Shown: piece after piece, positions 12,264 through 38,591 of the stretch | Numbering within the stretch: the first letter of the stretch is position 1 | How the letters are laid out: each line of letters starts with the position of its first letter | Origin: a virus | DNA length: 39,551 bases | Virus record (IMG/VR): IMGVR_UViG_3300027969_000201 | Span: 1-39,551 of that record | Strand: one strand, 5' to 3' | The notes under the pieces: model-generated | Databases searched by the model: none | What the model was told of the DNA's origin: nothing | What the model saw: only the letters and a program-made list of their open reading frames with translations | Translations under genes and position numbers: made by a program

Positions 12264-12278
12264 CTCTTGCTCCGATGA

Positions 12279-12653
12279 TTAGGCTGGTGTTTCTGGAGTT
12301 GGCGCTACCACTTCAACCCAAGAGGTTGTAGGTTCATCCCATTGAAACATCTTACCTTCTACAACAGGCATAGCTGTAGGTGCGTCCCACAGGCAAGTGT
12401 TTTCGTTCAGCACCCAACTTGGGAATGGTGAAGGCGGAATAAACGCATCACGGCCTGAGTCGTAGGTAAAACCAATACCCGCGTAATTTTTACGCAGTGG
12501 TGTATCGCCAAGCTTATGCTCACCGCCTTGTGTGTTGTATGAGGTCTGAACCCAAAGTGCTGGGTCGCCCCAGTGACCAAGGTTTAAAACGTCCTGCTCG
12601 ATGACAATGACTTGCGTCACTACACCGTTCTCTACTTTTGCAAAATGGCTCAT
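12279..12653 (-). CDS. Conserved tail-associated protein between adhesin genes, 124 aa
   Basis: The sequence contains FAKVENGVVTQVIVIEQD (4-21), LRKNYAGIGFTYDSGRDAFIPP (53-74) and a Trp-containing C-terminal part (CLWDAPT, FQWDEPT). Proteins with these motifs are common near fibre genes in cyanophages and freshwater phages. Whether it is a virion part or a fibre-assembly helper is not clear. It lies between adhesin paralogues 3 and 4 with its own ribosome site. Confidence 0.75.
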   Translation of the reverse strand: MSHFAKVENGVVTQVIVIEQDVLNLGHWGDPALWVQTSYNTQGGEHKLGDTPLRKNYAGIGFTYDSGRDAFIPPSPFPSWVLNENTCLWDAPTAMPVVEGKMFQWDEPTTSWVEVVAPTPETPA

Positions 12654-12662
12654 AGTTGCTCC

Positions 12663-13814: not shown

Positions 13815-13823
13815 GTCTATTCC

Positions 13824-15356
13824 TTAGAAGGTGATTGAACCACTGGATGTCCAAGTGTACACACGGTTCTTGTAGCCCGTACCTGTGAATGGAGACAGTT
13901 GGTTCCAACTGCCAGCAACAGTAGTTGATGCGGGAGCAAAACTGTTTGTAGAACCGTCTGCAAGATATGCCCCAGAAACTAAATTCATTAACAGCTGAGT
14001 TCCCGATACAGCAGTCAAAGGTGTTGTGCTTGGCGTAAAGTTGCTTGTGTATAAAGCTGTGCCAACAACATATCTAAAATTTGATATGTATCCGTTTGTG
14101 TAGTACCCGTTATAGTCGCCCAATCTTCCAATTGTCATTGGTGTAGAGCCAGATGTTACTGAACCAGCAACAGTAACTGTCCCTACTGATGTTCCATTGA
14201 CATACAAAGTCATAACGGTACTGTTTCTAACAAGGGCAATGTGATACCAAGTGCTGATGTTCATTGTTGTTGATGATGAAATAGTGTAGCCTGTGCCGCC
14301 CACAAAAACTTCACCATTAAATAAATTGCTAGCATCTATACCAATATCAAATATTCTTGCACCTAAACTTGAATTATTTTGTCCAGCAAATACTTGCGAT
14401 CCACCAGCAGACCTATAGGCCCACATTTCAATTGTAAAATTGCCTGAACCTAAATTAAATGCTGAGTTTGATGCATACTGTATAAATTGCGTACTGCCGT
14501 TAAAAGCAATACTACCCGACCCACTTGTACTTACAGTTGGTGAACCTGTTGTAGATGCCGCCGCCGCATATACGTCTGGGTATGAAACGATGACAATGCC
14601 AGAGCCGCCAGCGCCCCCAGTGCCAAGACCACCACCACCACCGCCCCCACCTGTATTTGCAGTGCCCGCAGTGGCGGCAGTGCTTGAACCACTCTCACCT
14701 CCCGCACCTCCACCACCTACGCCGCCAGAACCTTTAACTCCAACATATGCGCCACCACCTCCACCACCAGCGTAGGCAGTTACAGTTCCGTTAATAACAG
14801 AAGCAATGCCACCTCCGCCATCACCCTTACCTCCAGTAGTACCAGTTTTTGCGTTAAGACCAACAGTCCCTGCGCCGCCGCCTCCGCCACCATGTCGATA
14901 CGATGTGCTGTCAGAAATACCAACACCGCCAAAATTACCTTGGCCCGAAGTCCCTGCGCCGCCCGTAACACCGCCCTGCCCAGTACTGCCGCTACCCCCG
15001 CCAGAACCGCCAGAACGACCCAAAGTCTCTGCTACTGCCGCATCAGAAGCTCCGCCACCGCCACCGCCAACAGCAGATATTGCGCCAAATACAGAGTTTG
15101 AACCATTTGCACCAAAAGTGGTTATACTGCCCGCGCCGCCAGCACCAACAGTAACTAACAGAGCTTGTCCGTTTGGTACTGGATCAATGCCTAGCAACAA
15201 ACCGCCAGCGCCACCTCCACCACCACCGTTGTAGCGACCGCCACCACCGCCTCCAGCCACAGCTAAGTATTCAACTGCGGGTGGTTTTTGAGCGGGCCAG
15301 CCACCTTGCTGAACAGCTTGAACAACTTGTTTGAGATTAAATAAACCGTTTGCCAT
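13824..15356 (-). CDS. Glycine-rich adhesin paralogue 2 with inserted LamG-like domain (type A), 510 aa
   Basis: The type A start (LFNLKQVVQAVQQGGW) and AVEYLAVAGGGGGG open a Gly-rich body to about residue 258. Residues about 282-458 form a concanavalin/laminin-G-like jelly roll: FNGSTQFIQY, NFTIEMWAYRS, TWYHIALVRNSTVMTLYVNG, ISNFRYVVGTALYTSNFTPS. This domain lies inside the C-terminal cap, splitting TTGSPTVS from NRVYTWTSSGSITF, segments that are adjacent in the paralogues. LamG-type domains often bind sugars, so it may extend receptor choice. Confidence 0.85.
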   Translation of the reverse strand: MANGLFNLKQVVQAVQQGGWPAQKPPAVEYLAVAGGGGGGRYNGGGGGGAGGLLLGIDPVPNGQALLVTVGAGGAGSITTFGANGSNSVFGAISAVGGGGGGASDAAVAETLGRSGGSGGGSGSTGQGGVTGGAGTSGQGNFGGVGISDSTSYRHGGGGGGAGTVGLNAKTGTTGGKGDGGGGIASVINGTVTAYAGGGGGGAYVGVKGSGGVGGGGAGGESGSSTAATAGTANTGGGGGGGGLGTGGAGGSGIVIVSYPDVYAAAASTTGSPTVSTSGSGSIAFNGSTQFIQYASNSAFNLGSGNFTIEMWAYRSAGGSQVFAGQNNSSLGARIFDIGIDASNLFNGEVFVGGTGYTISSSTTMNISTWYHIALVRNSTVMTLYVNGTSVGTVTVAGSVTSGSTPMTIGRLGDYNGYYTNGYISNFRYVVGTALYTSNFTPSTTPLTAVSGTQLLMNLVSGAYLADGSTNSFAPASTTVAGSWNQLSPFTGTGYKNRVYTWTSSGSITF

Positions 15357-15362
15357 AGAACC

Positions 15363-16277
15363 TCAGAATGTGATAGTGCCAGAGGCAAAAAACTTATACA
15401 CGCGCCATCCGCTTGCAATGTACGTTTCGGGGCCACCTGTTGTTGATGCGGCGGCTATTTGATAAGAAGGGTAGCGGATAATCACTACGCCAGAACCGCC
15501 TGCTCCAACGTTGCCAACTGCTGGCCCACCTGATCTTCCGCCTCCGCCACCACCGCCCGTATTTGCTAGTCCGTCTTGACCATTAGCTGTTGAGGTATTT
15601 GAAGTGTAAGAGCTAGCACCACCAATGCCACCGCCATTACCCCCGCCACCCGCACCCCCTAAACCGCCCATTTCTGGGTTGTTAGAATAAACATCACCGC
15701 CACCACCACCGCCACCAGCGTAAAACAATCTTACGCCAGTAATTGAAGAAGCAATTCCAGTTCCGCCATTGCCAGCGCGTTGGCCTGTACTAGCATCTAT
15801 TTGAACGCCGGGCAAACCTACGCTTCCAGCACCGCCTCCGCCACCAGACGCTCTTGCGGCGTAAGTTCCGCCATTATTGCCTTGTCCGGGTGTTCCCAAT
15901 GTGGTTCGGTCGCTTGAATCGCTTGCTTGAGAGCCTCCAGCACCTGATCCACCAGATGTACCCGCGTAATAGTAATTCCCACCCCCGCCACCACCAACTG
16001 TAGAAATGTTTCCAAAGACGGAACTTGTCCCTTTTCCACCAGCATTTCCACCACCGTTACCAGCAATACCGCCACCACCAATTGTGACGGTAATAGATGT
16101 TCCGGGTGTAATGGGATACCCCATAGCGGTTAAAAGACCGCCAGCACCACCTCCGCCAGCACCAGCCGCCGCGCCGCCACCTCCGCCAGCCACGACAAGG
16201 TACTCCACCGTTGTTACAGGTGAATTGATGCCGTCAAGCCCGACAGAAAGAATGCCGCCAACTCTATCAAGAGACAT
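15363..16277 (-). CDS. Glycine-rich adhesin paralogue 1 (N-terminal type B), 304 aa
   Basis: It starts SLDRVGGILSVG, matching the 383-residue paralogue, then TTVEYLVVAGGGGG, a Gly-rich body with variable inserts, SGVVIIRYP, and the cap ending VYKFFASGTITF. It is the first adhesin transcribed and lies 6 bases before paralogue 2. Confidence 0.83.
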   Translation of the reverse strand: MSLDRVGGILSVGLDGINSPVTTVEYLVVAGGGGGAAAGAGGGGAGGLLTAMGYPITPGTSITVTIGGGGIAGNGGGNAGGKGTSSVFGNISTVGGGGGGNYYYAGTSGGSGAGGSQASDSSDRTTLGTPGQGNNGGTYAARASGGGGGAGSVGLPGVQIDASTGQRAGNGGTGIASSITGVRLFYAGGGGGGGDVYSNNPEMGGLGGAGGGGNGGGIGGASSYTSNTSTANGQDGLANTGGGGGGGRSGGPAVGNVGAGGSGVVIIRYPSYQIAAASTTGGPETYIASGWRVYKFFASGTITF

Positions 16278-21265: not shown

Positions 21266-21718
21266 TTACCAACAAGAGTTAGATTTTTTAACCGCGCCAC
21301 CAGACTTCTTAGGCACATTTGATTTGCGATGCTCACCAAGTGATAGCTTAATGAATTTTTTTAATTGGTTAGGACGGTCAGCTTTTTCACGCATAGTCTC
21401 TTCCCGTCTTGCGTCTGTATCGTAAGCAACTCTTTTTGCAGTAGGATCATTTATGGCATAAATTTCACGCCTATCGGTTTGACCTTCGCGTGGCATCCTG
21501 TGTTGTGCATTCATGTAAGTACGTGCTCGTAACTTATCTTCAAGAGGGTGAAAATAATTTGGCGCTCCGCCTGCGCTCATTTTGGCTGTTCGGGCGGATT
21601 GTCTGAAGGCTTTAGACGTTGGCGCACCTTCGCTACCAACTCGGCGCATTTTCTCGCCAGACCCTTTAGCGATTCTTTCACGTTTTCGATGAATATTTTC
21701 ATATAGACCTTGTTTCAT
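21266..21718 (-). CDS. Basic virion-type protein, 150 aa
   Basis: The N-terminus (KQGLYENIHRKRERIAKGSG, then APTSKAFRQSARTAK at 32-46) is a recurrent phage motif of unknown function. The protein is highly basic, with predicted helices but no membrane segment. It ends KKSGGAV followed by KKSNSCW, combining the GG motif and the Cys-Trp tail found in neighbours. It may bind nucleic acid or be packaged. Confidence 0.72.
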   Translation of the reverse strand: MKQGLYENIHRKRERIAKGSGEKMRRVGSEGAPTSKAFRQSARTAKMSAGGAPNYFHPLEDKLRARTYMNAQHRMPREGQTDRREIYAINDPTAKRVAYDTDARREETMREKADRPNQLKKFIKLSLGEHRKSNVPKKSGGAVKKSNSCW

Positions 21719-21721
21719 GAT

Positions 21722-22228
21722 TTACCAGCAGGAACTGCCACCTGTTTTGAATGGAGCGGGTTTACCTTTGCCAATCTTTTCAGACCACTCTTTACGAGCA
21801 GAATCAGCAATTGGTGCTTTTGATGTTTTAGCTTTGAACTTCAATTTTTCAGATTGCTCGCGACGTCCCCATCGATCTTGAATCTTTTTGTTTTCTTCTG
21901 TATCACCAGCGCGTTTAGCCATCATGGACATGTTGCTAGCCGCCGCATTCTTTCTGCGCATAGACTTCTGTTTGTTTAAAACAGCAGAGCTAATGCGAGG
22001 GGTTTCTTGCGGCTCATCATCTTCATCTTTCAATTGACCAGTAGCGCTTTTGTAATCCCAATCGCTGTCATAGTCATATGGACTCATAGAGCCTCCAGTA
22101 GCCTTTTTAGCCATACGTTTAGTGCTGTAAGCAATTGCTACGGCTTGCTTTTGGGGCTTGCCTGCGGCGATCTCAGCTTTAATGTTTGACTTGAACGCCT
22201 TGTCAGATTTTGATTTGATGAGCGGCAT
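21722..22228 (-). CDS. Basic virion-type protein, 168 aa
   Basis: Residues 1-37 (PLIKSKSDKAFKSNIKAEIA, AGKPQKQAVAIAYSTKR) are a widespread small domain at the N-terminus of phage basic proteins. GG motifs appear at KKATGGSM (41-48) and at the very end, FKTGGSSCW. Basic and acidic low-complexity sequence lies between. No enzyme motif is visible. Confidence 0.72.
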   Translation of the reverse strand: MPLIKSKSDKAFKSNIKAEIAAGKPQKQAVAIAYSTKRMAKKATGGSMSPYDYDSDWDYKSATGQLKDEDDEPQETPRISSAVLNKQKSMRRKNAAASNMSMMAKRAGDTEENKKIQDRWGRREQSEKLKFKAKTSKAPIADSARKEWSEKIGKGKPAPFKTGGSSCW

Positions 22229-22686: not shown

Positions 22687-23826
22687 TTAACAACCGCCGC
22701 CACGCTTTTTGCTTGCAGGAGCTACAGTCACTGATTTCTCAGTCTTTGTAACACTACCAGCAGGCTTGGGGGTCATACCCATCATGCTCTTCGCACCTTG
22801 AAACAACTTGCTAGGAATACTACGGATGGCTTTCGCCATGTCCATTTCTTCCTCGCTTGGCCCAATGGATTTATCGTATGCGCCTTTTGATGCGTCTACG
22901 GTGCTTCCAGTGTTATAGCGTTTCGCTGTGCCACCATGCTTATAGCGAGAGTGTTCTACTTGGTTCTTGGCTGTTGAGTGAGCATCTTCAGCGTCATCAG
23001 TGTGTGAGTCGCCTTCAGTTAGATACTTACCGTCAGGAGTATAGAACTTAGTTCTGTACTCTTGCCAGTCACGATCCTTGTAAACTTTAGCTACATGTCC
23101 TTTAGGGCCAGTGTAGGTCTTCAAAAGGCGGAGGTTTGGTTTCTCCGCTTTTTCAACCTTACCGCCTTTAGCAAAAGTCCCAGACTGCAGACTGTTTGCT
23201 ATTGGCTTTGAGACTGGCTTTTTGGGCATCGCGACGGGTTTGCCTGTATCAACAGTTCCCCCCGTCGCGTAGGCTTTTTTTGTGGAACCACCCATCTTGT
23301 AACCACCACCATTAGCCTTAGCAACGCCACCAGTTTTATAGCCACCGCCATTACCCAACTTCACACCACCAGTGTTGGCGGGTGAATGATCGGGTTTGGC
23401 TGTAACCATCTTTGTCTCGCCCTTGGTTGACTTGATGATGCCACCATCTTTGAAGCCACCTTGACCGTTGACAACGCCACCAGTTGCAAACTTCTTACCA
23501 GCCATAGCCTTCTTGATCATTGCACGATCTTGAGCGGCGTCTTCATGCTTGTCAGTCTTACCACCTTTTTTCATCAGGGTAGGACTCATAGCAGGCTTTG
23601 CCATCATCGCTTTACGACGAGCCGCCATAGACGGTTTCATGGGGCTAGCCGCAGGCGCTAAACCACCACGAGCAGGCGTAGCTGGCATTGCTTGAGCAGG
23701 CATAGTTGACTGCATGGGCATGTACCCACCGTCCATCTTATGCTCTACTTTGCCGCCTTTCTTTAGCTTCAGGATAACTGAAGGCTCAGTGGTCATCATT
23801 TTGACCATTGGTTTAAATTGTCCCAT
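22687..23826 (-). CDS. Gly-Gly-motif repeat protein, basic, 379 aa
   Basis: It contains about a dozen short motifs of the type K/A-x-G-G-x-V/A, for example LKKGGKV (21-27), MKKGGKT (85-91), FATGGVV (113-119), YKTGGVA (163-169), YATGGTV (186-192) and FAKGGKV (218-224), separated by Lys/Met/Pro-rich spacers. A compact domain lies at about 230-295 (RLLKTYTGPKGHVAKVYKD, DWQEYRTKFYTPDGKY). It ends KKRGGGC. I chose ATG 23826 because it has AAGGAGAGCAAC upstream. The function is unknown; it shares motifs with the 1676-residue protein. Confidence 0.78.
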   Translation of the reverse strand: MGQFKPMVKMMTTEPSVILKLKKGGKVEHKMDGGYMPMQSTMPAQAMPATPARGGLAPAASPMKPSMAARRKAMMAKPAMSPTLMKKGGKTDKHEDAAQDRAMIKKAMAGKKFATGGVVNGQGGFKDGGIIKSTKGETKMVTAKPDHSPANTGGVKLGNGGGYKTGGVAKANGGGYKMGGSTKKAYATGGTVDTGKPVAMPKKPVSKPIANSLQSGTFAKGGKVEKAEKPNLRLLKTYTGPKGHVAKVYKDRDWQEYRTKFYTPDGKYLTEGDSHTDDAEDAHSTAKNQVEHSRYKHGGTAKRYNTGSTVDASKGAYDKSIGPSEEEMDMAKAIRSIPSKLFQGAKSMMGMTPKPAGSVTKTEKSVTVAPASKKRGGGC

Positions 23827-23836
23827 GTTGCTCTCC

Positions 23837-24814
23837 TTATGCTTGTGTGACGCCAAACGCGCCAACACGAGTTGCATTCGGGCCTGCCGCAATTGCTGGC
23901 AGGGCTATTCCCATTACAAGACGCTTGATACCGTCACAAGCAGACGAGGGCAAATAAGTACCCCTCACATCACCAGTGGTTGTGGTTGCTGTGGCGGTAG
24001 CGGCAACAGTCATAGTTCCAGCATCTTCAGCCAAAGTATTGTCCCAACCAGCGCGGGTAACGTAGCCTCTATCAATGATACGCAATGGTGCGCCCAAGAT
24101 GTCGGTTGTACCTACCGCAACAGTTACCACACTTCCGCCAGAAGCAGTAACACTAGAGATCTGGTAGAAGGCTTTTTTACCATTGACAGTTGTTGACGCC
24201 ACTGTTCCTGTTGCAATTACCTCGCTCATGGCTTGACCGTAGTAGTCGTAACCAGAAACAGTAATGTTGACAGAAGTTGGTGAACCAGCACCAGTGGTTG
24301 TACATACGGCACGAGGGCAATCAAGTTGCAAACCTGTTGTACCGCCAGTAATGGTTGTTGATGTAACACCAGCACCTGCGGCAAGCGTGAGCGTGGTAGC
24401 AGTTGTGATGGCGGCGGCAACAATGTTGGTCGTCAGTTTTGCCTGTGGTACAGCGTCCCAAATATAGACGCGACCCAATGGGCCAACACCTACAGTCATT
24501 GTGGATGGGTTTTGCAACAAAGCATTACCAGAGCCAACGATTGTGGAGCTTGCTACAGTTTGTGAGGCACTTACGGTGTAAGTTCCTACACCGCCAGAAC
24601 CTGTACCAAAAGCGGTAATGTAAGTTCCATTGGTAAGTGACGTTGAACTGTCAATAAACATACCAACAGCAATATTGTCACCAGAAAGCATTGCGGTGAC
24701 GGTTAGTGTAGTGGTAGAAATTGAACCAGTAAAAGTTGCAACAGCAGGGTAGGTGTCCGCACCTTGATAGGTAACAGCGGAACCTAAAAATAGGTCATCT
24801 GAAAATTGTGGCAT
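23837..24814 (-). CDS. Virion structural-type protein with inserted Thr/Gly beta module, 325 aa
   Basis: The family-like part ([15 protein letters not shown] at 4-18, then [24 protein letters not shown] at 102-125, and a C-terminal part with [20 protein letters not shown]) looks like a phage structural protein of unknown role. Residues about 27-93 are a separate module ([33 protein letters not shown]) also present in the 662-residue protein. Start has AAGGAGAAGATCAA upstream. It is the first gene after the major capsid terminator. Confidence 0.72.
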
Positions 24815-26997: not shown

Positions 26998-27969
26998 TTA
27001 ACGGGCGCCGTTTGCACGGTCATATTTGATGAAGTTTTCAATCATTGCTTTCTTGCGCGTAGGGTTGTCCCAAGCGCCCACTTCCTTCATAGCTTTGACC
27101 CGTTCGGGAGAAAGCACGAATTGTGTGCGGTTGTTACCACCAAATGCGGCTGAAGCTTCACGACCTGAACTACCCACAACGTTCCTCGGTTTTCTAACAG
27201 CAGAATTACTGTCGTTGTTGTCATTGTAGCGGTGTGGTAATGCTTTTTGCAAGCGATTATCTAATTCATCCCAATAATCTGGATCAGAGGGGTTCATTCC
27301 TTCTGTAACTAGCAGTTCGTCAACCTTTTTGGCGACTTGCGAGTCACGGTCTGAGGTATCTGGGCGATACCATGAATTACGACGCATCCAGTCAGCGGCA
27401 TTGCGTTGCACTGTAGGGTCAACAACAGGTGTGTCGTTGCGATTTTGTGCTTCACGCTCTGCAGATTGCTTTGCACGAGCAAATTCGCCCACTGCGGCTT
27501 GCGCTTCGTTCCACATCGTCTGCGCTTCCACCATCGCGTCACCGTCACCAGCTTGTACAGCCTCGGACAGCTTCATCTTGGCGTATTCCAAGCGCACTTT
27601 CTGGTCTTCTAGGTGCTTGTCAATACGTGCGATCTGACTATTCTTAGTCTCACGCTCCACATTGGACAAACGACGCTTGAATTCTTCGTTTTCTCGTTGC
27701 AGTTGTTGCAATCGAGCGTCTTTTTCCTCATTCGTCTTGCGAATCAGGTCTTTTTTAGACCTACGACGCGCTCTTTTTGCCGCTCTTACAGCATCAGAGT
27801 CATCAGGATGGTCATCTTCTTCTGCAGATACGTCACCGCCAGTGCTTCTCTCGGCAATTTCGTCTCCATCTTCAGAAGAAAGCATACTTTCAGGCAGATC
27901 AATCACTGCAGAGCCGTCTTTCGTCTCTTCAATGTTCAAATCTACTTCTTTTTTGTCTTCAGTACTCAT
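26998..27969 (-). CDS. Scaffolding-like protein, 323 aa
   Basis: An acidic N-terminus (1-55) is followed by a basic patch (AKRARRRSKKDLIRK) and a long coiled coil (about 85-175; QLQRENEEFKRRLSNVERE, QVRLEYAKMKLSEAV style). The C-terminus is basic (NPTRKKAMIENFIKYDRANGAR), as in scaffolds that bind capsid protein. Residues 18-26 (DGSAVIDLP) match the portal N-terminus at the same residue numbers. Confidence 0.78.
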   Translation of the reverse strand: MSTEDKKEVDLNIEETKDGSAVIDLPESMLSSEDGDEIAERSTGGDVSAEEDDHPDDSDAVRAAKRARRRSKKDLIRKTNEEKDARLQQLQRENEEFKRRLSNVERETKNSQIARIDKHLEDQKVRLEYAKMKLSEAVQAGDGDAMVEAQTMWNEAQAAVGEFARAKQSAEREAQNRNDTPVVDPTVQRNAADWMRRNSWYRPDTSDRDSQVAKKVDELLVTEGMNPSDPDYWDELDNRLQKALPHRYNDNNDSNSAVRKPRNVVGSSGREASAAFGGNNRTQFVLSPERVKAMKEVGAWDNPTRKKAMIENFIKYDRANGAR

Positions 27970-27981
27970 GAAATTCTCCGA

Positions 27982-28440
27982 TTAAACATAAGCCTTGAAT
28001 GAAAGCGGATCGTCAGTGACTCTCGCAATCAATTCGTGGTCGTTGATGGTCATAAAAAGAACAGGGTCTTCGTTACCCTCTTCGTTAGGAACCTCGCGCT
28101 CCCAACGATCACCGCCCCATTTAGGTACTCGCACGTAGTCGCCTACGCTTGCCCAGCTACCTTCGGGCCATGACTCCATAGTTTCGCGGTTCTTAAAGGC
28201 CAGAGGGCCAATCTCCACCACTCGACCAATCATGTTCTGCCACTTTTCAGTCTCTTTGGTTTCGGCAACCAAAATGATCTTGCTGGCAGTTGTCTTTTTG
28301 ATGCGTCGTAGCTGTACAACTACGCGACCACCGAACGGCTTTTGACCCGGACTCACGTCGGGGAAAGCCCACTTTAGCTCCTGTTCATCAGGTACGCCTT
28401 CACTTCCCGAAATCGTCGGGATCTTTTCTCTCTCACTCAT
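27982..28440 (-). CDS. GroES-like co-chaperonin, 152 aa
   Basis: From residue 36 (FGGRVVVQLRRIKKT) the pattern follows GroES: a flexible loop with IIL (55-57; GroES uses IVL to bind GroEL), GRVVEIGPLAF (72-82), ASVGDYVRVPKWGG (97-110) and MTINDHELIARV at the end. The N-terminal 35 residues are an extra. I chose ATG 28440, preceded by TAGGAGTGAGT, over a GTG two codons upstream. It probably works with host GroEL to fold capsid proteins. Confidence 0.75.
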   Translation of the reverse strand: MSEREKIPTISGSEGVPDEQELKWAFPDVSPGQKPFGGRVVVQLRRIKKTTASKIILVAETKETEKWQNMIGRVVEIGPLAFKNRETMESWPEGSWASVGDYVRVPKWGGDRWEREVPNEEGNEDPVLFMTINDHELIARVTDDPLSFKAYV

Positions 28441-28520
28441 ACTCACTCCTAAAAATCACCATATTTCAGGTGCATCGTTAAAGCACTTTTCAGCGCGGCC
28501 TTTAGCCCCAAGGATTGGGG

Positions 28521-28703: not shown

Positions 28704-28846
28704 TTTTTCTTAGCTTGAGACAAACCACCTTGGGGCTTACCGTTACCCTTAGGTTGCATGCTTTGGCCTGAGAGCTTCTCGCCCATAGCCAAGCGCTTGT
28801 GCTGGGGAACCAACACGCTCTTTTGTTCTTGATCAGATGTTGACAT
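28700..28846 (-). CDS. Short basic protein, 48 aa
   Basis: ATG 28846 overlaps the portal gene end in another frame and has AGGAGTTCCAA upstream, so I prefer it over a longer form starting in the portal gene at 28954. The product is polar and basic, ending GKPQGGLSQAKKK. Function unknown; it may be coupled to portal translation. Confidence 0.65.
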   Translation of the reverse strand: MSTSDQEQKSVLVPQHKRLAMGEKLSGQSMQPKGNGKPQGGLSQAKKK

Positions 28847-31352
28847 TTGGAACTCCTTGAGGTTGTGGCATGCCTTCTGGCATACCTTGTTGCGGCATCT
28901 CTGCCATTGGTGCGCCCATTGTAGGCGCAGGTTCTGGTAATTGCCCAGTGGCAATGTCTGTAATTGTTTGATGTGTCAGCTTGGCATTCTCGATGGCAAT
29001 CTTTGTCTTGTTGTCTTCGAGGTGCTTTTGCATATCCATCTGCAATTTTTGAGTGTCGAGTTGCAAACGAGCCTGATCCTCTTGCGTTTTGCGCTGAGTC
29101 TCTGCCATGTTTGTGTCTTTGACAACTTGTGCGTCTGGCGGTAGCACTTGCTTCTGTGCATCTTTGCGCTTCTGTGCTTGCTGAATAAGCGCTTGGAACG
29201 CTGGAGCAAACTGCTCGAACACTTCCTTTGTATCCATACCAACGTGAGCACCAACAGCCGTGTAAAGCTGGTCAATGGTGCCTGTGAGCATTGGATCATC
29301 GTAGTTGTCCACGGGCTTACCGTTGCGAGACTGAGCCACATAGCCATTTGAGCGGTTCAAGTACCACAAGGTCATGTGTTGCTTGATGTGCTCGATCAGG
29401 TTGTTCAGGTAGCCGGGATCTGCAAACGGTGACTGGCCCAAGAATGGGTTCATCGCAAATTGCAAGTGATCCTGAATGTGAGCAATGTGATCCTGTTGCA
29501 TGTAGGCATACGCAGGTTGACCAATCAACATAGCCGCATTCTCGTCAGCAGAAGTGCGCTGTTCAGGCGATGGAACATCCTTCATCAACTCATTGATGTT
29601 GGGGATCTTCATCTGCTTCAATGAACGCGCCAGCACTTTGTTCATGTTGAACTGCTCAGGGTGCTTATCCGCCAAAGACAACACAGCCTGCATTTGAGCC
29701 ATACGCTGAGTCTCAGAGAAGATGTGCGGATCAGAGACAGGGATCACGTCCGTGTTCTTTTGGAAGTCTTCGCGGCTGATTTCCAGATCTGCTACCACGT
29801 CAGACTTGCGCATCTCGTCAAAGTGCCAACGGTTTAGCCGGCACAAGATCTTCAACACACGGGCTTGCGACTCATGCAAACGAGCATGAATAGACGAGAA
29901 CACCGCCGCACCCTGCTCAATCAATGCTTGAGTGGTACCTACAGGGGCATTAGCGTTGACGTCAGCGATTTTTTCCTCTGAGGTGGACACTACCCCCTTC
30001 GCCGCTGTATCTAACCAGCCTAGGAGCCTAAATAAGACCTCTGAAGGTGGGTTAAATGGCATAGGCATCGCAATCTGGCGAATGTCTTGGACGCCGGGCG
30101 CTCCCTCAATCTCCACAATCTGGGTCACATCCACCTGCTGGGACTGACCAGACATCTTCGCTCCCTTGAGCTTCAACATGGTCGCCGCATTGTTGATATG
30201 GGCAGAGTCCAATAAAGCGCGTAGAGAGCCTGTAAGAGCCGCTGACAGCCCTCCTATGAGGTGTGGCAGACCAATAGCATAGGCACCACGCCAAGGAATG
30301 AACTTGAACTCCACAATCCAATCCAGCTTGGTCATCGTCTCGTCTTGCTCTTCCCAGTTACGGTACAGACCAATGACTTCGTTGTCCAACTCGTCGATCA
30401 TTAGGATGTAAGGAGCCATCTCACCCTTGGTGTACTTGTCTTCTTTTAACTCCAAGTAAGTGTAGATGTGGTAGACGTTACGCAAGCCATCGTCGTTGTC
30501 TTCAAACTTCTTACCTTCAATCTTGTTGGTCGCCTTCTGAGCCTTCGTCATTTCAGGCTCCATCGTGTTAGGGATCATGTCGATGTTGCGGTACATACCG
30601 CTGACTACTCGACGATTGAATTCCCACGCTGTGATCTCATGCACCTCAGCGGCACGTTGTGCTGTGTAAAAGTTGCTAGCGGCAAACGGCAGAATAATCC
30701 TATCGATTGGAACAAACTCCACGCAGGGACGTTTCTTCTGCTCGTCAAACCAAATCTTGAAGTACTGTGAGCCACCCAATGGCAACTGCGTCAGCAACTG
30801 CTCTTGCTCATCCCTGAACTCCTCGATCTGCTCAGTGATCTGCCAATTCAGGTAGTCGCGTTTGCGCTCTGCCTTCTCAGATTTAATGTCGTCCATCTTG
30901 CCCAGCACCTTAGTGCGAACAGGGCCGTCAGGTGGGAACATTTCTTTGATAGCTTTGGCGGCAAAGTCAACACAGCCCTCAGCCATAGCAGGGTGAACCA
31001 CCTTGCTGGCACCCATGAAGGTGGCGCCGCCGGGCGCATCATTGCCCATGCCAGTGCGCTTGATACCCTCTTCGTACTGCTTATCTCTCTGCTCACGCGC
31101 TGACTTGTCCGTCTTGAGCAAGTCGCTGTAGCGCATTGCCAGCTTGCCAAGGTCATACTCGTCATAGGACTCCGCCATGTTGGAGTAAAAGTCTGGATTC
31201 TCTTCAGGGCCACCGTCAGGCATCGTGACAACAGCCGATCCATCAGGCATCTCCTCGATCTCAGACAGATCATCAGGCAGATCTACGTCAGCACTGCCGT
31301 CTTCATTCTCAGTGATCATGGGATCTTGTGTTGGGTCAAGTTCGTCCATCAT
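28833..31352 (-). CDS. Portal protein, 839 aa
   Basis: The acidic N-terminus (1-50) carries two DGSA motifs. A portal core follows with YFKIWFDEQKKRPCVEFVPIDRIILPF (214-240) and a C-terminal helical barrel and coiled-coil tail (about 740-800). The tail ends in a Pro/Met/Gly-rich segment (PQQGMPEGMPQPQGVP). At 839 residues it is a large podoviral portal, forming the dodecameric DNA entry ring. Its ATG overlaps the stop of the polyvalent gene (ATGA). Confidence 0.85.
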   Translation of the reverse strand: MMDELDPTQDPMITENEDGSADVDLPDDLSEIEEMPDGSAVVTMPDGGPEENPDFYSNMAESYDEYDLGKLAMRYSDLLKTDKSAREQRDKQYEEGIKRTGMGNDAPGGATFMGASKVVHPAMAEGCVDFAAKAIKEMFPPDGPVRTKVLGKMDDIKSEKAERKRDYLNWQITEQIEEFRDEQEQLLTQLPLGGSQYFKIWFDEQKKRPCVEFVPIDRIILPFAASNFYTAQRAAEVHEITAWEFNRRVVSGMYRNIDMIPNTMEPEMTKAQKATNKIEGKKFEDNDDGLRNVYHIYTYLELKEDKYTKGEMAPYILMIDELDNEVIGLYRNWEEQDETMTKLDWIVEFKFIPWRGAYAIGLPHLIGGLSAALTGSLRALLDSAHINNAATMLKLKGAKMSGQSQQVDVTQIVEIEGAPGVQDIRQIAMPMPFNPPSEVLFRLLGWLDTAAKGVVSTSEEKIADVNANAPVGTTQALIEQGAAVFSSIHARLHESQARVLKILCRLNRWHFDEMRKSDVVADLEISREDFQKNTDVIPVSDPHIFSETQRMAQMQAVLSLADKHPEQFNMNKVLARSLKQMKIPNINELMKDVPSPEQRTSADENAAMLIGQPAYAYMQQDHIAHIQDHLQFAMNPFLGQSPFADPGYLNNLIEHIKQHMTLWYLNRSNGYVAQSRNGKPVDNYDDPMLTGTIDQLYTAVGAHVGMDTKEVFEQFAPAFQALIQQAQKRKDAQKQVLPPDAQVVKDTNMAETQRKTQEDQARLQLDTQKLQMDMQKHLEDNKTKIAIENAKLTHQTITDIATGQLPEPAPTMGAPMAEMPQQGMPEGMPQPQGVPNVNI

Positions 31353-34300
31353 TTGGCTTTCTTGTTACGTGTCAGTTCTAACAACATGGTGTCCATGTCT
31401 TTGTTCATTGTAACTTTGCGTTTGGTATTCGACAAACCGTGTTTTGCAACTGGTTCATGATCATGTCCACGCATAGCTAAGTGACGTTGTGCAACCACGT
31501 TTTGCTCAGGGAACGCATGGAAATCATCATCGCTAAAGCCAATGTGACGACCACCAACTTGACCGCCTCCAGCATAAAACTTAATTGATTGTGGTGCGCG
31601 GTACTCTTTGTTAGAAGCTTTAATTTGATCTTCTGGTTTGTCAATTTCGTACTCGCCTTTGTTCTCAATTGCATGCTCGATGTGCTTGGGGCTTACATTG
31701 TGAGTGAATGAAGTCTCGTGACCAATGTTACTTGTGGACTCAGTAGGCGTGGTCATCAAGATGTGACCAGCGTCTTTGCCATTTTTAGTTTTAAATTTAT
31801 TTTTGGGCAAGAACTCAGTGTCTTTGAAACGTGAATCTGTAGGGATCATGTGATCCTTAGTTTCCATTTCACCAGTCTTTTTGTTCTTTTTACGAATAGG
31901 AACGTTCACCAAGCGTGGGTGCAAGATGTGTTGCTTCTGGTAGTCATAACGCTTTCCATCAATGGTTTTATGACCATAGTGAGCCTCGTCTTCGCTTGAA
32001 GGCTTGCCGTTGCCACCAAAATGTCCTTCTGCGCCTTCTTCTTTCTCTTGCGGTGTCAACTCATACTGTTCACGTCCAGTCGTCCAGTACTTGGCGTGAG
32101 TGATGTGCTTCTCCATGTTCTTAGACATTTCAGAGCCACGCTTAACGTCAGTCACCATGTACGAACCCTTTGGTGGCGTCTTGTGACCCTGTTCGTTTTT
32201 AAAGTCACCCTTGTTGTCAGACGCCATTATGGTGTTGCGAACACGGGCTTTGTCGCGAGCAATATTCTCGCTGATCTCTTGACCCTTCTTGACCTTTGGG
32301 CCTACGTTCGAATGCGTCACATGGTAACCATTCTCAGGGTCATGCAACTCATTTGTCTTGCCGTATGAGTTAGCAATAATTGGTGGCTTGTCGTTTACTT
32401 TACGTTGTTCATTCAAGTGACGGATCACGTGGCGTGAAGACACGTCAGTCTCGTCCACAACATTAGGACGGAACAAAAGTCGTTGATTACTTTTGTCTGC
32501 TTTGTTTGCCGCATCACGCATTGATCCTGTATGAGCCAAAATCCAATCGCGTGTCATCTTGGGGTCGTGCTTGGCTTGTTCGTGTGTTGCACGACGAACA
32601 GCCGCATGCACGTACTGTGATTCGGCATTGGGTGCAAAGCAGGTACCACGGCTAGTGTCGATCACACCCTTTGAGTCTTTACCGCCACCACAGCCCTCTG
32701 TTTGACCGGGGCAAGTGTTGATGATGTGATGCTTTTCATTCTTGCCGTGTCCAGATGTGTACAGTGCATGACCTGCCACACCCTTAGAAGCAAATCCAAC
32801 ATGGGTACGACCTTCTTCGTCCGTCTCATGACGCACAGTATCCAGCTTCTCAGACTCGTCCAGCGTGTTGTTCTTGGAACCCAAGTGTTTAGCGGCTCGC
32901 AAACGTGCAGTCGCTTCTTTCTCTGAGGCTAACTGGTCTTTGAGTGGCTTGGCAAAGTGATCCTCAAGTGTTTCTTTATGGATCTTGCCCGTTTGACCAA
33001 TGCTCAAGGGATCACGGTTCTCAGAACCATAAACTTCAGCACGTGCTTTGTTGATGTCTTTAAGTCCCGGCACCACAACTTTCTTGCCTTTTTTGTTGAT
33101 CCAACTGCGACCATGAAGCATATGGTGCGGGATTACAATACCAGTCACTCCGCCAGCGCCTTCAGCTTTAACCAAAATGCGTTTGGACGGCGCTTTCACC
33201 TCTTCTTCATCATCATCGTCGTCGCTTGCCGCTGGTGCCGCTTGTGCCTTTTTCTTAGCCGCCAACTCAGCTTTCATCTCGTCAACTGACTTAGCGCTAC
33301 CGCCCTTAGCCAAACCTTGGGGCTTTAGAGCCGCCATCGCTTGTCCTTGGGGGGTCATGCTCAAGATGTTGCTTCCAGCTTGCTGTGGTTGCATTGCGCC
33401 CTTTACAGGCATGCTGTCCATAGGGGGTTGGTCAGCCATAGGCACCTGCCCCATGCCGGGTTGCTGACCCGGTTGGCTGGGCATCAATTGGTGACCGGGC
33501 TGTTGCTTGCTCATGTCGATCCCACCAACAGGAAGATCCCCTTGCGACGTGTCTATACCGCCTACAGGCATGCGACCAGCGTCTGGGCTACCAGTGGTAG
33601 GCACATACGCTTTAATGCCCATGCTGGGGGCTTCCTCGGCGCCAATGGATTGGAGTTGATTCAGCCCTTTGAATCGGTTCATCATCTGAGCTTTGACTTG
33701 TTCAATAGGTAACACAGCGCCTCCTTCGGCTTTGCGAATAATTTGTTGCTTGCCTTCTTTGCCACTTACGTAGTATCCGTTGTGACCTGCTTGCTTGATG
33801 GCACTCTGAATGCGTGGGTCTTCAACAAACTTGTAGCTACCCTGCGACAACACGCTAGCCAAGTGTTTAGCCGCATCAGGGATCTGATTGAAGTCCTTGT
33901 GCTTGGCGGCAATGCCAGCGACGTTCTCAACATGTGATGGGTTGTCGTAGTCGAATGGGCTTCTCACTTCACCACCTTTAGCTCGTTCCATAACACCACC
34001 ACTGTAGTCATCATAATTTTTATACGATGGAGTTGACTCCATTTGATACTCAGGCATCTTGTATGACATCTGTTGGATCGGCTCTGGTGGGGTTGGTGTC
34101 TGCTCGACCAATGAAGCTTGCTCCAACGGTGATACTAGTTTAGTCGCGTCCGCCATCTGATTCGTGTTGTTTTGCACGTTATCCGCTGGTGTGATTGCTG
34201 TCAATCCACCAATAGGATTGGTGTTGGTATTTGTGGTGTCTACAACGTTCTGCGTTGGCTGGTTTGCCTTGTACGCATCTGCAAACTTGTTGATGTAATC

Positions 34301-36379
34301 TGCTTTTGACTGCTCATTGTTCAAGTGGAAACCAGATTCATCCATCAAGTTCTTCTGGTTCAGCATCCCAGACATGGCATCGACAAGAGTCACGTTTGGA
34401 TTGTTGTTCGCGATGTCGCTGTACATCTCGTTCATCACCAAGTTGGGATTGTCAATCGCTTCTTGAAATGAGTTAGCAAACGGCTGGGCAGACAAGATAA
34501 TGCTCACGCCGCTTTCACCAAGCCTAGACACAATCTCATCTAGGTTGGCGCGGGTGATCGCTGGGTCTACACCAGTAGCAATGTCGTTAGCTCCGATGTC
34601 CAACACTACGGTGGTGCCGGGAGCAAAGGTGCCTCCATCCCTTTCAAACACGTTCAGTTGGTTCAGCACATCTGCTGTCTTGTACCCACCTACCGCTGTG
34701 TTCGTAACGTCCTGACCAAAGGCTTGATTAGCAAGCTTAGTGTTCTGATCACCAGCCAGCCAGCTAGCACCAGACAATACGACGCCTTTTAATTGGTTAG
34801 GCTTTTTAATGACGTCTTGAAGGATGCCACCATCAGCCATGCGCACAACTCCACCGCTTGCTTTGCGCATCAATGCTTGGCGCATTTCATGTTGGCTTGG
34901 GTTTACTTTGCCGCCTTTGGCTTTGTAGTTTACATACTCTTCAGCTTTAAATTCATCAGGGGCAATCAAGCCTTGAGCAGATCCACCCTGAGCAAAGCCA
35001 AACGTCTTCTTTGCAAACGGTTCAGTGCGCGGTAGGTCAGCCATGCCAGCCTTCTTGTTGATGCGCTCCACCTCAGCGTCGGACAACACCTTGTTGACTT
35101 TCATAGATCCACCGATCAACCAATTACCCGTCATGTTGGGGTTGGTCTTATATCGATAGTGTCCGCCTTTGGGGATCTGATCCGTGATGTGCGCCTTCAC
35201 TGGAATGACCTTGCCTTGTGCATTGGTGCCACGCTTGGTAGCCTCAGACTGCCAGTCCACATCATTAGGCATCTCGACCTCAGCCCATGCATGGTTAGAT
35301 GGGCGACGATCAGGCGCTGTCTTTGATGGGTCGGACTTCTCTCCAATGTGGGTAGCCATAGGCAGATCACCAGCATGCCAGCCGGGTCGGTAGGCAAGGT
35401 CGCCGATCTTTGACTTGACCTTACCGTTTTTCATGTCGCCTTCTTTGGCGTCCACCCACTTGTTCATCTCAACTGGGGTGTTGGCGTCTACGAAGAGTGG
35501 GAAAAGTTTGCCGGGGTGATCCTTATGCACACGGAACAGCTTATACGCCTTGACGGTGCTCTCGGGTTCTTTGGCTACTGATCCACCCTTTGCCATGTTC
35601 GTTATCGCTGACTTGACTTTGCTTGGGTCTAAGATAATGTAGTCATTGTGGGCGTCACTCTTCAAGGCGTCGTAGCCTGCATCGATGTACGGCTTTAGCT
35701 CGCTTGGTTCGCCAGCCATTAACCTAAAGTCCTCGTCAAGGACATGCGCAATCTTGGTCGCTGACATGTGAACGGGCATCACGATTTTGCCATGCTTAGA
35801 CGCATAGTCTGGGTCGTCGGTCAAGTATGAACCAACATTGAACCGTTTGAATTCTTTGTCCGTGCCGTGATACAGGCGCTTTACATGCTTGGGTTGCTTT
35901 GCAGTCTTACTTGCCAATTCTTGGCGCATTTGTTCTGTTGTAGGTTGCACTGTTCCACCTCTTGCTTTGTGTATTACCTGACGCGACACGATACCGTGAC
36001 CGACGTCGCGCTCCTCCTCGTACCGCACAGGATCATGCATGGGGTACAAGTGTTTGGTCGGCGTATTGATGTCGAACCGCGATCCCTTGGGGACTAAGTG
36101 GTCGCCCTCCATCGCACGGAACTGTTTCTGGTTCACCACCTTCGGCTCACCCACCGTAACCTCACCAATAGCCTTAGCCTTGCCTTCACCAGTGCGGACA
36201 ATCGCCACGCGCTTACCAACATAGGGGCGCAGTGTGTCGCTATTGCGTGACTCAAGGGTCTTCTGCCCATCGACAATCATGTCAGCGTACCTCAGCCCTG
36301 CCTTGGTATCGCTCGCTACATTGATGCCCATAGGGGGCTTGCTTGGGATCATGGAATGTCCTTCATGAATGCCGCCCAT
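31349..36379 (-). CDS. Giant multidomain polyvalent-type protein, 1676 aa
   Basis: Domains, numbered from ATG 36379: ASCH-like at about 16-95 (YADMIVDGQKTLESRNSDT, VGKRVAIVRTGEGKA); ADP-ribosyltransferase-like at 166-260 (LYHGTDKEFKRF, YLTDDPDYASKHG, IILDPSKVKSAI); a domain with RPGWHAGDLP and HAWAEVEMP at 276-455; SGNH-hydrolase-like at 533-705 (SGAS with Ser 539, GAND 596-599, FHLN with His 685); low-complexity linkers; a small segment at 805-880 that may be a degenerate second ART; and a C-terminal part from about 1066 with TCPG, GC and GTC cysteines (1223, 1230, 1247), possibly GP88-like. AxGGxV motifs separate the parts. A GTG 10 codons upstream is an alternative start. It may be packaged and injected to counter host defence; that is inference. 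Confidence 0.75.
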   Translation of the reverse strand: MGGIHEGHSMIPSKPPMGINVASDTKAGLRYADMIVDGQKTLESRNSDTLRPYVGKRVAIVRTGEGKAKAIGEVTVGEPKVVNQKQFRAMEGDHLVPKGSRFDINTPTKHLYPMHDPVRYEEERDVGHGIVSRQVIHKARGGTVQPTTEQMRQELASKTAKQPKHVKRLYHGTDKEFKRFNVGSYLTDDPDYASKHGKIVMPVHMSATKIAHVLDEDFRLMAGEPSELKPYIDAGYDALKSDAHNDYIILDPSKVKSAITNMAKGGSVAKEPESTVKAYKLFRVHKDHPGKLFPLFVDANTPVEMNKWVDAKEGDMKNGKVKSKIGDLAYRPGWHAGDLPMATHIGEKSDPSKTAPDRRPSNHAWAEVEMPNDVDWQSEATKRGTNAQGKVIPVKAHITDQIPKGGHYRYKTNPNMTGNWLIGGSMKVNKVLSDAEVERINKKAGMADLPRTEPFAKKTFGFAQGGSAQGLIAPDEFKAEEYVNYKAKGGKVNPSQHEMRQALMRKASGGVVRMADGGILQDVIKKPNQLKGVVLSGASWLAGDQNTKLANQAFGQDVTNTAVGGYKTADVLNQLNVFERDGGTFAPGTTVVLDIGANDIATGVDPAITRANLDEIVSRLGESGVSIILSAQPFANSFQEAIDNPNLVMNEMYSDIANNNPNVTLVDAMSGMLNQKNLMDESGFHLNNEQSKADYINKFADAYKANQPTQNVVDTTNTNTNPIGGLTAITPADNVQNNTNQMADATKLVSPLEQASLVEQTPTPPEPIQQMSYKMPEYQMESTPSYKNYDDYSGGVMERAKGGEVRSPFDYDNPSHVENVAGIAAKHKDFNQIPDAAKHLASVLSQGSYKFVEDPRIQSAIKQAGHNGYYVSGKEGKQQIIRKAEGGAVLPIEQVKAQMMNRFKGLNQLQSIGAEEAPSMGIKAYVPTTGSPDAGRMPVGGIDTSQGDLPVGGIDMSKQQPGHQLMPSQPGQQPGMGQVPMADQPPMDSMPVKGAMQPQQAGSNILSMTPQGQAMAALKPQGLAKGGSAKSVDEMKAELAAKKKAQAAPAASDDDDDEEEVKAPSKRILVKAEGAGGVTGIVIPHHMLHGRSWINKKGKKVVVPGLKDINKARAEVYGSENRDPLSIGQTGKIHKETLEDHFAKPLKDQLASEKEATARLRAAKHLGSKNNTLDESEKLDTVRHETDEEGRTHVGFASKGVAGHALYTSGHGKNEKHHIINTCPGQTEGCGGGKDSKGVIDTSRGTCFAPNAESQYVHAAVRRATHEQAKHDPKMTRDWILAHTGSMRDAANKADKSNQRLLFRPNVVDETDVSSRHVIRHLNEQRKVNDKPPIIANSYGKTNELHDPENGYHVTHSNVGPKVKKGQEISENIARDKARVRNTIMASDNKGDFKNEQGHKTPPKGSYMVTDVKRGSEMSKNMEKHITHAKYWTTGREQYELTPQEKEEGAEGHFGGNGKPSSEDEAHYGHKTIDGKRYDYQKQHILHPRLVNVPIRKKNKKTGEMETKDHMIPTDSRFKDTEFLPKNKFKTKNGKDAGHILMTTPTESTSNIGHETSFTHNVSPKHIEHAIENKGEYEIDKPEDQIKASNKEYRAPQSIKFYAGGGQVGGRHIGFSDDDFHAFPEQNVVAQRHLAMRGHDHEPVAKHGLSNTKRKVTMNKDMDTMLLELTRNKKAK

Positions 36380-36405: not shown

Positions 36406-36443
36406 ACACTTTTCAAAGTGTAGTTAACTACAGTTTTAAACTG
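36406..36443. promoter_or_regulatory. Three consecutive palindromes between terL and the polyvalent gene
   Basis: ACACTTTTCAAAGTGT (36406-36421), TGTAGTTAACTACA (36419-36432, perfect 14-mer) and CAGTTTTAAACTG (36431-36443) follow one another, the last covering the terL stop codon. A protein-binding site, RNA structure or packaging site is possible. Confidence 0.45.
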
Positions 36444-37872
36444 CATATGGGTTTTCTCTTCCACGCGCACGTTTGTTGTACTCGTCGGCGTCGTATATGT
36501 CGTCCTCGTCCAGATCCTCGCGAGGTGGTGCATCAATGCTGATCCAGCCGGCATCACGCATGTACCGTAAGCCCTGTGAGATGCAGTCAACGAACTCGTC
36601 ATGCGCCGTCTCAGGGAATGAGCAGATCTGGCTGACCATGCCTTCAGCCCAGTCCCTCACGAATCCCTTGCGCTTACTGCTCTCAGGCACCCACACACGC
36701 CCTGCGCGGATGATGTTGGACACAATGCTTAGGCGCTGGGTCTTGTCCGCTCTGCCGGGGTTGTACCCAATCACAGGCAGGTGCGCTCGTTGCAAGTCTT
36801 GTATAAGACTGATGCCGGCGGCTTTGTCCTCCACCAGCAGTAAGTCAACGCGCTTCTTCTCTTTGCCTTCACCGTACACCGACTCGAACTCGTCAATGAT
36901 CTTGGGGCGCAGATCTGGGTAGGTCAGCTTCTCCTGCCAGCAGTCGATCACCATCACGCACATGCCGCCGTCCATTGGCTTGTATGCGCCCAGTGTGATG
37001 CACCCAGTAGGGTCGTTAGCTTCACCGTCTTTGTATCCACAGTCGTAGCTCTGGATAATGAACTCGAACTTGGGGAACGGCTTGTTGTTGGGCCACAGCT
37101 TGAACCATTCCCTCTTGACGATGCCGCCCTCTTCAGGGTCGATGATCTCGGCGTGGATCTCTTGCCGGCCTAGGTTCGTACCCTCGTACTGCAGGATCTG
37201 CTTTTGGAATGATGGCGCCAGATTCTTCATGTTGCTGTACGTGCTGGCGCGTGTGATCACCACGTCGTCACCCTCACGGTCAATCAACTCCATCACTACC
37301 TCTTTGGGCTTTGGAGTTGTGGAGCATATGAGCTTGGTGCGTTGGCCCAGTCGTATGCCGAACTGGATCATGTCCCACGACTCGCGCAAGTACTCCCATG
37401 CCGCTAGCTCGTCCAGCCAGCCACCGTGGAACTGTGGGCCCCGGAAGCGCTCTGGCTCCGACGCTGGTATGCCCTTGATGAAGCTCCCATTGATCAGGTG
37501 GATCTCGTGCAGGCTGGAGTTGTACTTGGCTATCAATGCAGGCGGGATCACGGATATAAGCCCTGAGTCACCCTCGAAGCATGTACCCTTCAAGTCGCCG
37601 CTGGTAGGGGCTGAGACAAGCCATCGTGTGTTGGGTTGCTCCCATGCCCATGATGCCAAAGTTTCAGCGGACGCCCTAGTTTTACCGGCCCCACGACCCG
37701 CGAGCATCAGCCATATGTTCCACCAGTCACCCGACGGCTCTATCTGGTGCTTATGCGCCTGTTGGCCCAGCCACTTCAACTGCCAATTGATAACCGCCTG
37801 CTCAATGGGATGCAGGGTTTCAAATTCCTTTTTGATGCTGGGATCGTCCAGCACCGCATCTAGTGCGCTCAT
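36436..37872 (-). CDS. terL: Terminase large subunit, 478 aa
   Basis: Walker A AGRGAGKTR (58-66), Walker B region GGWLDELAAW with D154 and E155, coupling-type motif CSTTPK (183-188), and the nuclease domain with D277 in SYDCGY, the acidic LVEDKAAG (345-352) and HDEFVD (424-429). Length and order match the ATPase plus RNase H-like nuclease architecture of phage terminases. ATG overlaps the small-subunit stop. It cuts the concatemer and pumps DNA through the portal. Confidence 0.93.
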   Translation of the reverse strand: MSALDAVLDDPSIKKEFETLHPIEQAVINWQLKWLGQQAHKHQIEPSGDWWNIWLMLAGRGAGKTRASAETLASWAWEQPNTRWLVSAPTSGDLKGTCFEGDSGLISVIPPALIAKYNSSLHEIHLINGSFIKGIPASEPERFRGPQFHGGWLDELAAWEYLRESWDMIQFGIRLGQRTKLICSTTPKPKEVVMELIDREGDDVVITRASTYSNMKNLAPSFQKQILQYEGTNLGRQEIHAEIIDPEEGGIVKREWFKLWPNNKPFPKFEFIIQSYDCGYKDGEANDPTGCITLGAYKPMDGGMCVMVIDCWQEKLTYPDLRPKIIDEFESVYGEGKEKKRVDLLLVEDKAAGISLIQDLQRAHLPVIGYNPGRADKTQRLSIVSNIIRAGRVWVPESSKRKGFVRDWAEGMVSQICSFPETAHDEFVDCISQGLRYMRDAGWISIDAPPREDLDEDDIYDADEYNKRARGRENPYAV

Positions 37873-38244: not shown

Positions 38245-38272
38245 ATTGTATATGTTAGTGGTTACCAACCAA
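38245..38272 (-). promoter_or_regulatory. Possible sigma-70-type promoter before the terminase genes
   Basis: On the minus strand TTGGTT (38272-38267) and TACAAT (38250-38245) are separated by 16 bases. The -35 match is weak. It lies at the end of the 93-residue gene and before terS. Confidence 0.25.
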
Positions 38273-38543
38273 CTCGTCCACCTGATGCTTTACGAATAAC
38301 CTTCATGGGTTTATCCACCTTTTCATTGACTTCAATGTCATCTGGTTTGACTTTGTGTCTGTCCAATACTTTCCACAAAGCATTGTTTAGGATCTCGTCT
38401 TCATGGGTGCTTGGGCTGATCTGTTTGTAGCCTTCGTAGGCTTCGCGCACGTCGTCGCCATGCACGGTTACGGTGTCGAGGTGCCTACCATCTTTGTGGG
38501 TGACATCCCATGCACGGTCTTTGAACTTGTACTTCTCTGCCAT
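38262..38543 (-). CDS. Small accessory protein with C-terminal GG motif, 93 aa
   Basis: The sequence has KFKDRAWDVTHKDGRHLDTV, a middle helical part (DEILNNALWKVLDRHKV) and the ending RKASGGRVGW. The end resembles the KASGGVV motif in the 1676-residue protein and the GG/Trp tails of other small proteins here. ATG 38543 has GAAAGGACATAT upstream and is preferred to a start 12 codons earlier. The function is unknown. Confidence 0.7.
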   Translation of the reverse strand: MAEKYKFKDRAWDVTHKDGRHLDTVTVHGDDVREAYEGYKQISPSTHEDEILNNALWKVLDRHKVKPDDIEVNEKVDKPMKVIRKASGGRVGW

Positions 38544-38591
38544 ATATGTCCTTTCACGCAATTGTTTCAGCGCATTCATATGGACGTGAGT

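Follow-up and report, generated by a model that had tools for sequence, protein, structure and literature searches.

A large multi-module protein encoded between the terminase and portal genes of a tailed phage carries ten copies of a short peptide, xAxGGxV, at the borders of its modules, and this tag belongs to one phage lineage, in which it occurs mainly in structural-region genes. Together with a short helix that often follows it, the motif may serve as a docking or packaging tag for the cargo modules of the polyvalent protein, a reading in which we place about even confidence. The window analysed here is the whole of virus record IMGVR_UViG_3300027969_000201 (39,551 bases).

Modules, motif copies and helices of the polyprotein

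The window belongs to a tailed phage, in which the polyprotein ORF is flanked by TerL (36436-37872) and the portal gene (28833-31352). The following modules were recognised, with residue numbers in brackets:

31349..36379, minus strand: polyvalent (multi-module) cargo-type protein, 1676 aa translation
36083..36292, minus strand: ASCH domain (30-99), Pfam PF04266, 21.6 bits against a cut-off of 21.2
35681..35881, minus strand: ART-PolyVal-like module (167-233), a sub-threshold match in the window protein but one far over the cut-off in relative L008
34991..35557, minus strand: phrog_30118 module (275-463), PHROGs, folded in the model, possibly ART-like
34313..34738, minus strand: GDSL/SGNH hydrolase domain (548-689), Pfam PF13472, 3.6e-13
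32459..32740, minus strand: GP88-like region (1214-1307) of a conserved C-terminal module, below cut-off here, above it in relatives L008 and L009

With its ASCH, ART-PolyVal and GDSL modules the polyprotein is a phage polyvalent protein: a single polypeptide unites at least two effector-type domains (ASCH and GDSL, which both pass the cut-off, phrog_30118, and ART-PolyVal in a relative), and its position between TerL and portal places a portal-terminase packaging system alongside. Segment 141-263 gives a weak ART-PolyVal match; the L008 protein scores 9.7e-21, and its match (169-297) fills the gap between two motif copies. Both ART-PolyVal and PcfJ modules exceed the cut-off in relatives. For the phrog_30118 structure, the VIA list consisted largely of ARTs, but with Z of only 2.4-3.9, and Foldseek returned no significant match for it or for either polyprotein model (residues 125-526 and 1017-1676).

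A preliminary description had listed nine motif copies, all of which proved exact, and had missed a tenth near the C-terminus:

35948..35968, minus strand: copy 1, KARGGTV (138-144), coil outside domain in model
35576..35596, minus strand: copy 2, MAKGGSV (262-268), sequence and model
34976..34996, minus strand: copy 3, FAQGGSA (462-468), sequence and model
34904..34924, minus strand: copy 4, KAKGGKV (486-492), sequence and model
34844..34864, minus strand: copy 5, KASGGVV (506-512), sequence and model
34820..34840, minus strand: copy 6, MADGGIL (514-520), tandem doublet with copy 5, sequence and model
33965..33985, minus strand: copy 7, RAKGGEV (799-805), sequence
33713..33733, minus strand: copy 8, KAEGGAV (883-889), sequence
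33293..33313, minus strand: copy 9, LAKGGSA (1023-1029), sequence and model
31556..31576, minus strand: copy 10, YAGGGQV (1602-1608), coil in model

The pattern xAxGGx[VILAFM] was thus found ten times in the polyprotein, against a mean of 0.37 and a maximum of 4 in 2000 shuffles. Copies lie at the edges of the ASCH, ART-like, phrog_30118 and GDSL modules and none inside them, as proposed in the preliminary description.

Five helices of one kind accompany these copies:

35903..35938, minus strand: helix after copy 1, TTEQMRQELASK (148-159), helix in model, relatives' consensus
34859..34891, minus strand: helix after copy 4, HEMRQALMRKA (497-507), helix in model
33671..33712, minus strand: helix after copy 8, LPIEQVKAQMMNRF (890-903), sequence only
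33245..33286, minus strand: helix after copy 9 (1032-1045), helix in model
31355..31396, minus strand: C-terminal tag helix, MDTMLLELTRNKKAK (1662-1675), model, relatives' consensus

The first four, expected after four copies in the form x-E-M-R-Q-x-L-x-x-K, are indeed there (TTEQMRQEL after the copy at 138, SQHEMRQAL after 486, IEQVKAQMM after 883, VDEMKAEL after 1023), but the literal E-M-R-Q is confined to those after 138 and 486; the fifth forms the C-terminal end of the polyprotein. Structure models with mean pLDDT of 59 and 62, which support rather than prove the assignments, predicted helices at 148-159, 497-507, 1032-1045 and 1662-1675. All eight modelled copies lay in coil outside the folded parts, mostly at pLDDT under 50, and some ran into the last residues of a tag helix; none of the eight fell inside a folded domain (those at 799 and 883 are outside the models). 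Such a position, in low-confidence coil between folded domains, would also suit a passive module linker, that is, a hinge with a helix cap that keeps modules apart and spread by repeated insertion, with no binding partner. This is the strongest rival to a docking tag, although we consider it rather unlikely. A plain hinge would require no particular residues at -2 (A) and +2 (V), and no fixed P-S/T-x-x-Q-M-R-x-A-L helix either.

Module borders and helices across related phages

We compared 93 non-redundant terminase-to-portal ORFs of up to about 2000 aa, taken from a set of 80 viral contigs whose terminase is related. Mosaicism was strong: window residues 1-435 are matched at 100% in one contig and residues 487-1676 at 97% in another, and the N-terminal module of the window protein lies deeper within the L021 and L067 proteins, where it is joined by KAKGGSV. 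Pairwise alignment breakpoints fell within 5 residues of AxGG for 49% of left ends and 43% of right ends, compared with 5% for rotated motif positions, a figure that may be sharpened because a shared motif can pull alignment ends towards itself. After collapse to unique 8-residue bins, enrichment at breakpoints was 4.7-fold for AxGG and 4.1-fold for the helix, against 1.2-fold for other GG pairs and 1.4-fold for a Pro/Gln-rich proxy; as the relatives are not independent, the permutation values should be read as descriptive. Two mixed-module alignments, A1 and A3, in which fragments were misplaced, were discarded. The helix and control enrichments speak for a specific border signal, and we rejected generic GG or disorder as its source. 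A passive linker is likewise disfavoured by the other GG pairs of these proteins, which are not at borders. The motif is conserved in homologues and enriched at the module borders of the 93 ORFs, and the landing of relatives' breakpoints on it bears out the earlier domain-join claim.

The helix has the consensus P-[ST]-[ILVM]-x-[QE]-M-[RK]-x-[AE]-L in N-terminal and internal positions and K-[ND]-[LM]-D-T-M-[RK]-L-E-L at C-termini. It starts 8-10 residues past GG in 65 of 347 motifs (about 0.7 expected per position), and among 58 distinct ORFs, 14 have the pattern within 40 residues of the N-terminus and 25 within 40 residues of the C-terminus, where internal stretches would predict 2.8. Examples beside unrelated modules are MSKKPTTDQMRLALLNKGG, MKKPEPTLNEMRLALTRG and MQPTMAQMRLAIAGK. 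Tags at free N- and C-termini count against a passive linker, as there is nothing to link there; in its favour, copy number scales with protein length (r = 0.83) and many copies lack the helix, the bare motif standing at 185 of 301 junctions. Some split ORFs of the terminase-portal interval (L062 12624, L027 8600 and L006 3717) contain neither motif nor terminal helix, and the tag is thus not strictly required in each ORF. A helix-like PIAQM[RK][AS]QL in another structural-region protein was taken as chance, as it sits within a long conserved stretch.

In split polyproteins (L015, L016, L019, L024, L027, L062 and others), the first ORF after the terminase ends in ...GGxVTHAHHLDIEERPL or close variants and overlaps the next ORF; this conserved tail may also serve the next ORF's translation start.

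Module exchange at the motif could also mean that the repeat is a DNA-level recombination seam, a homology site of which the peptide is a by-product. However, Ala/Gly codon agreement among copies matched the expectation from codon usage (0.31 vs 0.28, 0.37 vs 0.36 and 0.37 vs 0.36), leaving no conserved DNA word, and the motif is present in non-modular genes too. Because the motif codons vary freely, selection acts on the peptide; with synonymous codons free, a DNA recombination word was rejected, and we regard the seam reading as largely refuted and very improbable. Least credible of all is the idea that the GG codons are translation signals, either ribosome-binding sites for internal starts or remnants of fused genes. 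KGG/EGG codons can look like AAGGAGG, and KAKGGSV immediately precedes the module's Met in L021 and L067; yet GGA is not preferred at the first Gly (GGT 48%, GGC 33%, GGA 18%) and the Met is usually 8-10 residues off. A Shine-Dalgarno or fused-gene origin was rejected, as the codons do not fit.

Distribution of the motif in the phage lineage

Relatives of the window's portal are found in Caulobacter phage RW, Roseobacter CRP-901/902, Pelagibacter HTVC027P/023P, DSL-LC04 and Planktothrix phage Pag-Yong1, and gene order in the window's portal group continues from the portal with GroES-like, scaffold-like and capsid genes. DSL-LC04 also encodes a PcfJ-like protein with three motif copies. In five relatives of 53-57 kb, motif copies concentrate in structural-region genes, namely in the polyprotein, in the GG-rich ORF that follows the capsid gene (4-6 copies, present in each of the five) and in a few more. 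Strand bias was dropped as an indicator of late expression, most ORFs being on one strand, and gene identity was used instead. Scaffold-like proteins carry the motif near the N-terminus in 15 of 32 cases, about half being without it. The window has further copies outside the polyprotein:

22687..23892, minus strand: GG-rich ORF after the capsid gene, copies FATGGVV, YATGGTV and FAKGGKV
27829..27849, minus strand: RSTGGDV, one copy near the scaffold-like N-terminus (gene 26998-27969), sequence
38262..38579, minus strand: small ORF ending in the motif copy KASGGRVGW, sequence

The phrog_30118 module is motif-flanked in portal-bearing phages and occurs without the motif in the polyvalent proteins of L139, L144, L151 and L158, where no match to this portal was found; that the same module can be joined without the motif in other phages argues against a plain linker. 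Further phages with a relative of the GDSL module have both portal and motif copies, the exceptions being L184-L186, in which the module is not motif-bordered. Caulobacter RW and CRP-902, with the portal and no adjoining polyprotein, have motif copies at or below chance in the stretches read. In G011, a 23.7-kb fragment, the motif was present and the portal was not seen. Searching phage records by tblastn with the short tag as query retrieved only MW202545 and chance-level Shewanella phage matches, and no significant PDB sequence match was obtained for the capsid, the portal or either of two small head proteins.

Several further features of these genomes were recorded. Just before phrog_30118, L139, L144 and L151 have a DIRFS-like sequence (VDIRWSPRR, LQFSRRR and GDIRFSADR), perhaps a different border signature of the motif-less polyvalent proteins. 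A DGSAxVxLP-type peptide, conserved in relatives and possibly another shared docking peptide, occurs near the N-termini of the portal (28833-31352, minus strand; EDGSADVDLPD, PDGSAVVTMPD) and the scaffold-like protein (26998-27969, minus strand; KDGSAVIDLPE). The GroES-like gene in the head operon (27982-28446, minus strand) is kept across the portal group. Three structural-region proteins, at 21266-21718, 21722-22228 and 22687-23892 (minus strand), have Cys or Cys-Trp C-termini (NSCW, GGSSCW and RGGGC). Several glycine-rich proteins encoded next to one another at 11334-16277 (minus strand), with repeated GGGGG stretches, resemble phage fibre or structural proteins. Polyprotein relatives L209, L210 and L211 lie on contigs binned as Rubrivivax, Betaproteobacteria and Paceibacterota; these are probably phage contigs, and their bins hint at betaproteobacterial hosts.

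Possible roles: packaging tag or processing site

We propose that the polyprotein strings together exchangeable enzyme-like modules. It would probably be synthesised alongside the head proteins, travel in the virion and be delivered together with the DNA. In this scheme xAxGGxV, often followed by a P-[ST]-x-x-[QE]-M-[RK]-x-[AE]-L-x-x-[KR] helix, would be a short linear docking tag at module borders and protein ends. Repeated tags would bind the cargo to a common partner in the growing head, the scaffold-like and GG-rich proteins of many relatives would bind the same partner through their own tags, and a newly gained module would thus come ready for packaging. Presence in the virion, a binding partner and packaging caused by the tag are what we infer here. 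A shared targeting or packaging tag, one of two functions first suggested for the motif, is compatible with all tests: conservation at the protein level, position at borders and at unrelated ORF termini, and occurrence in structural-region genes and in about half of the scaffold-like proteins. The other half, and the many junctions without a helix, count against it.

Precedents exist for such a signal. Packaging has been proposed for phage polyvalent proteins (Iyer et al. 2017, PMC5512222), and in phage P1 the first 30 residues of DarB are enough to bring a reporter into the capsid (PMC9024508). The capsid-targeting sequences of T4 internal proteins and of P1 DarB (PMC9024508) are short terminal peptides that guide cargo to the head; the window's group has similar short helices at the N-termini of unrelated modules, and others at C-termini. 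Unlike those signals, the window's tag, recognised from sequence alone, is also internal and C-terminal and is repeated up to about ten times. To our knowledge, capsid-targeting sequences are single and N-terminal, which weighs against a docking tag.

The other function first suggested, processing sites that release single domains, was not upheld. Cleavage at GG by a phage or host protease, freeing single modules, would explain the border position and the invariant GG. Moreover, in T4-like phages the prohead-protease sites are a short motif common to scaffold and internal proteins, and here too a short motif is found in both a scaffold-like protein and the presumed cargo; in contrast to that system, no such protease was found in the window's group. 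P1 DarA and DdrB are also reported to be processed (PMC5512222). Nevertheless, S78, S14 and JAB peptidases were searched for in seven records, the window and those of six relatives, on contigs that may be incomplete, and none was detected although the positive controls worked. No protease was found among the head genes, and no pro-region is evident in the capsid protein. Motif doublets one residue apart, such as KANGGTI-H-MAKGGSV, make poor cut sites, and the GG-rich ORF would be shredded. We consider proteolytic processing improbable.

The protein class itself is already known: like the polyvalent proteins of phages and conjugative elements (PMC5512222), the window's protein is a large multi-module effector-type protein near terminase and portal genes, and the recurrent peptide-helix border tag is what sets its group apart. 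A search of the main text of PMC5512222 for 'linker', ASCH, GDSL, GP88 and PcfJ gave no match. The border tag is the part for which we found no description, including as linkers, processing sites or domain borders, in the literature searched, a set lying mostly outside subscription journals and preprints.

How cargo is chosen for packaging is largely open beyond a few T4 and P1 examples, and a compact tag repeated in several protein families of one phage group, and missing from other phages that have the same module, offers a concrete peptide to test for packaging and a sequence handle for further injected effectors. The borders also delimit modules cleanly, which would help in cloning unknown domains such as phrog_30118. 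More tentatively, a peptide-helix signal common to cargo modules and scaffold might allow modules to be gained, lost and reordered without losing entry to the virion, a plug-in arrangement for injected effectors.
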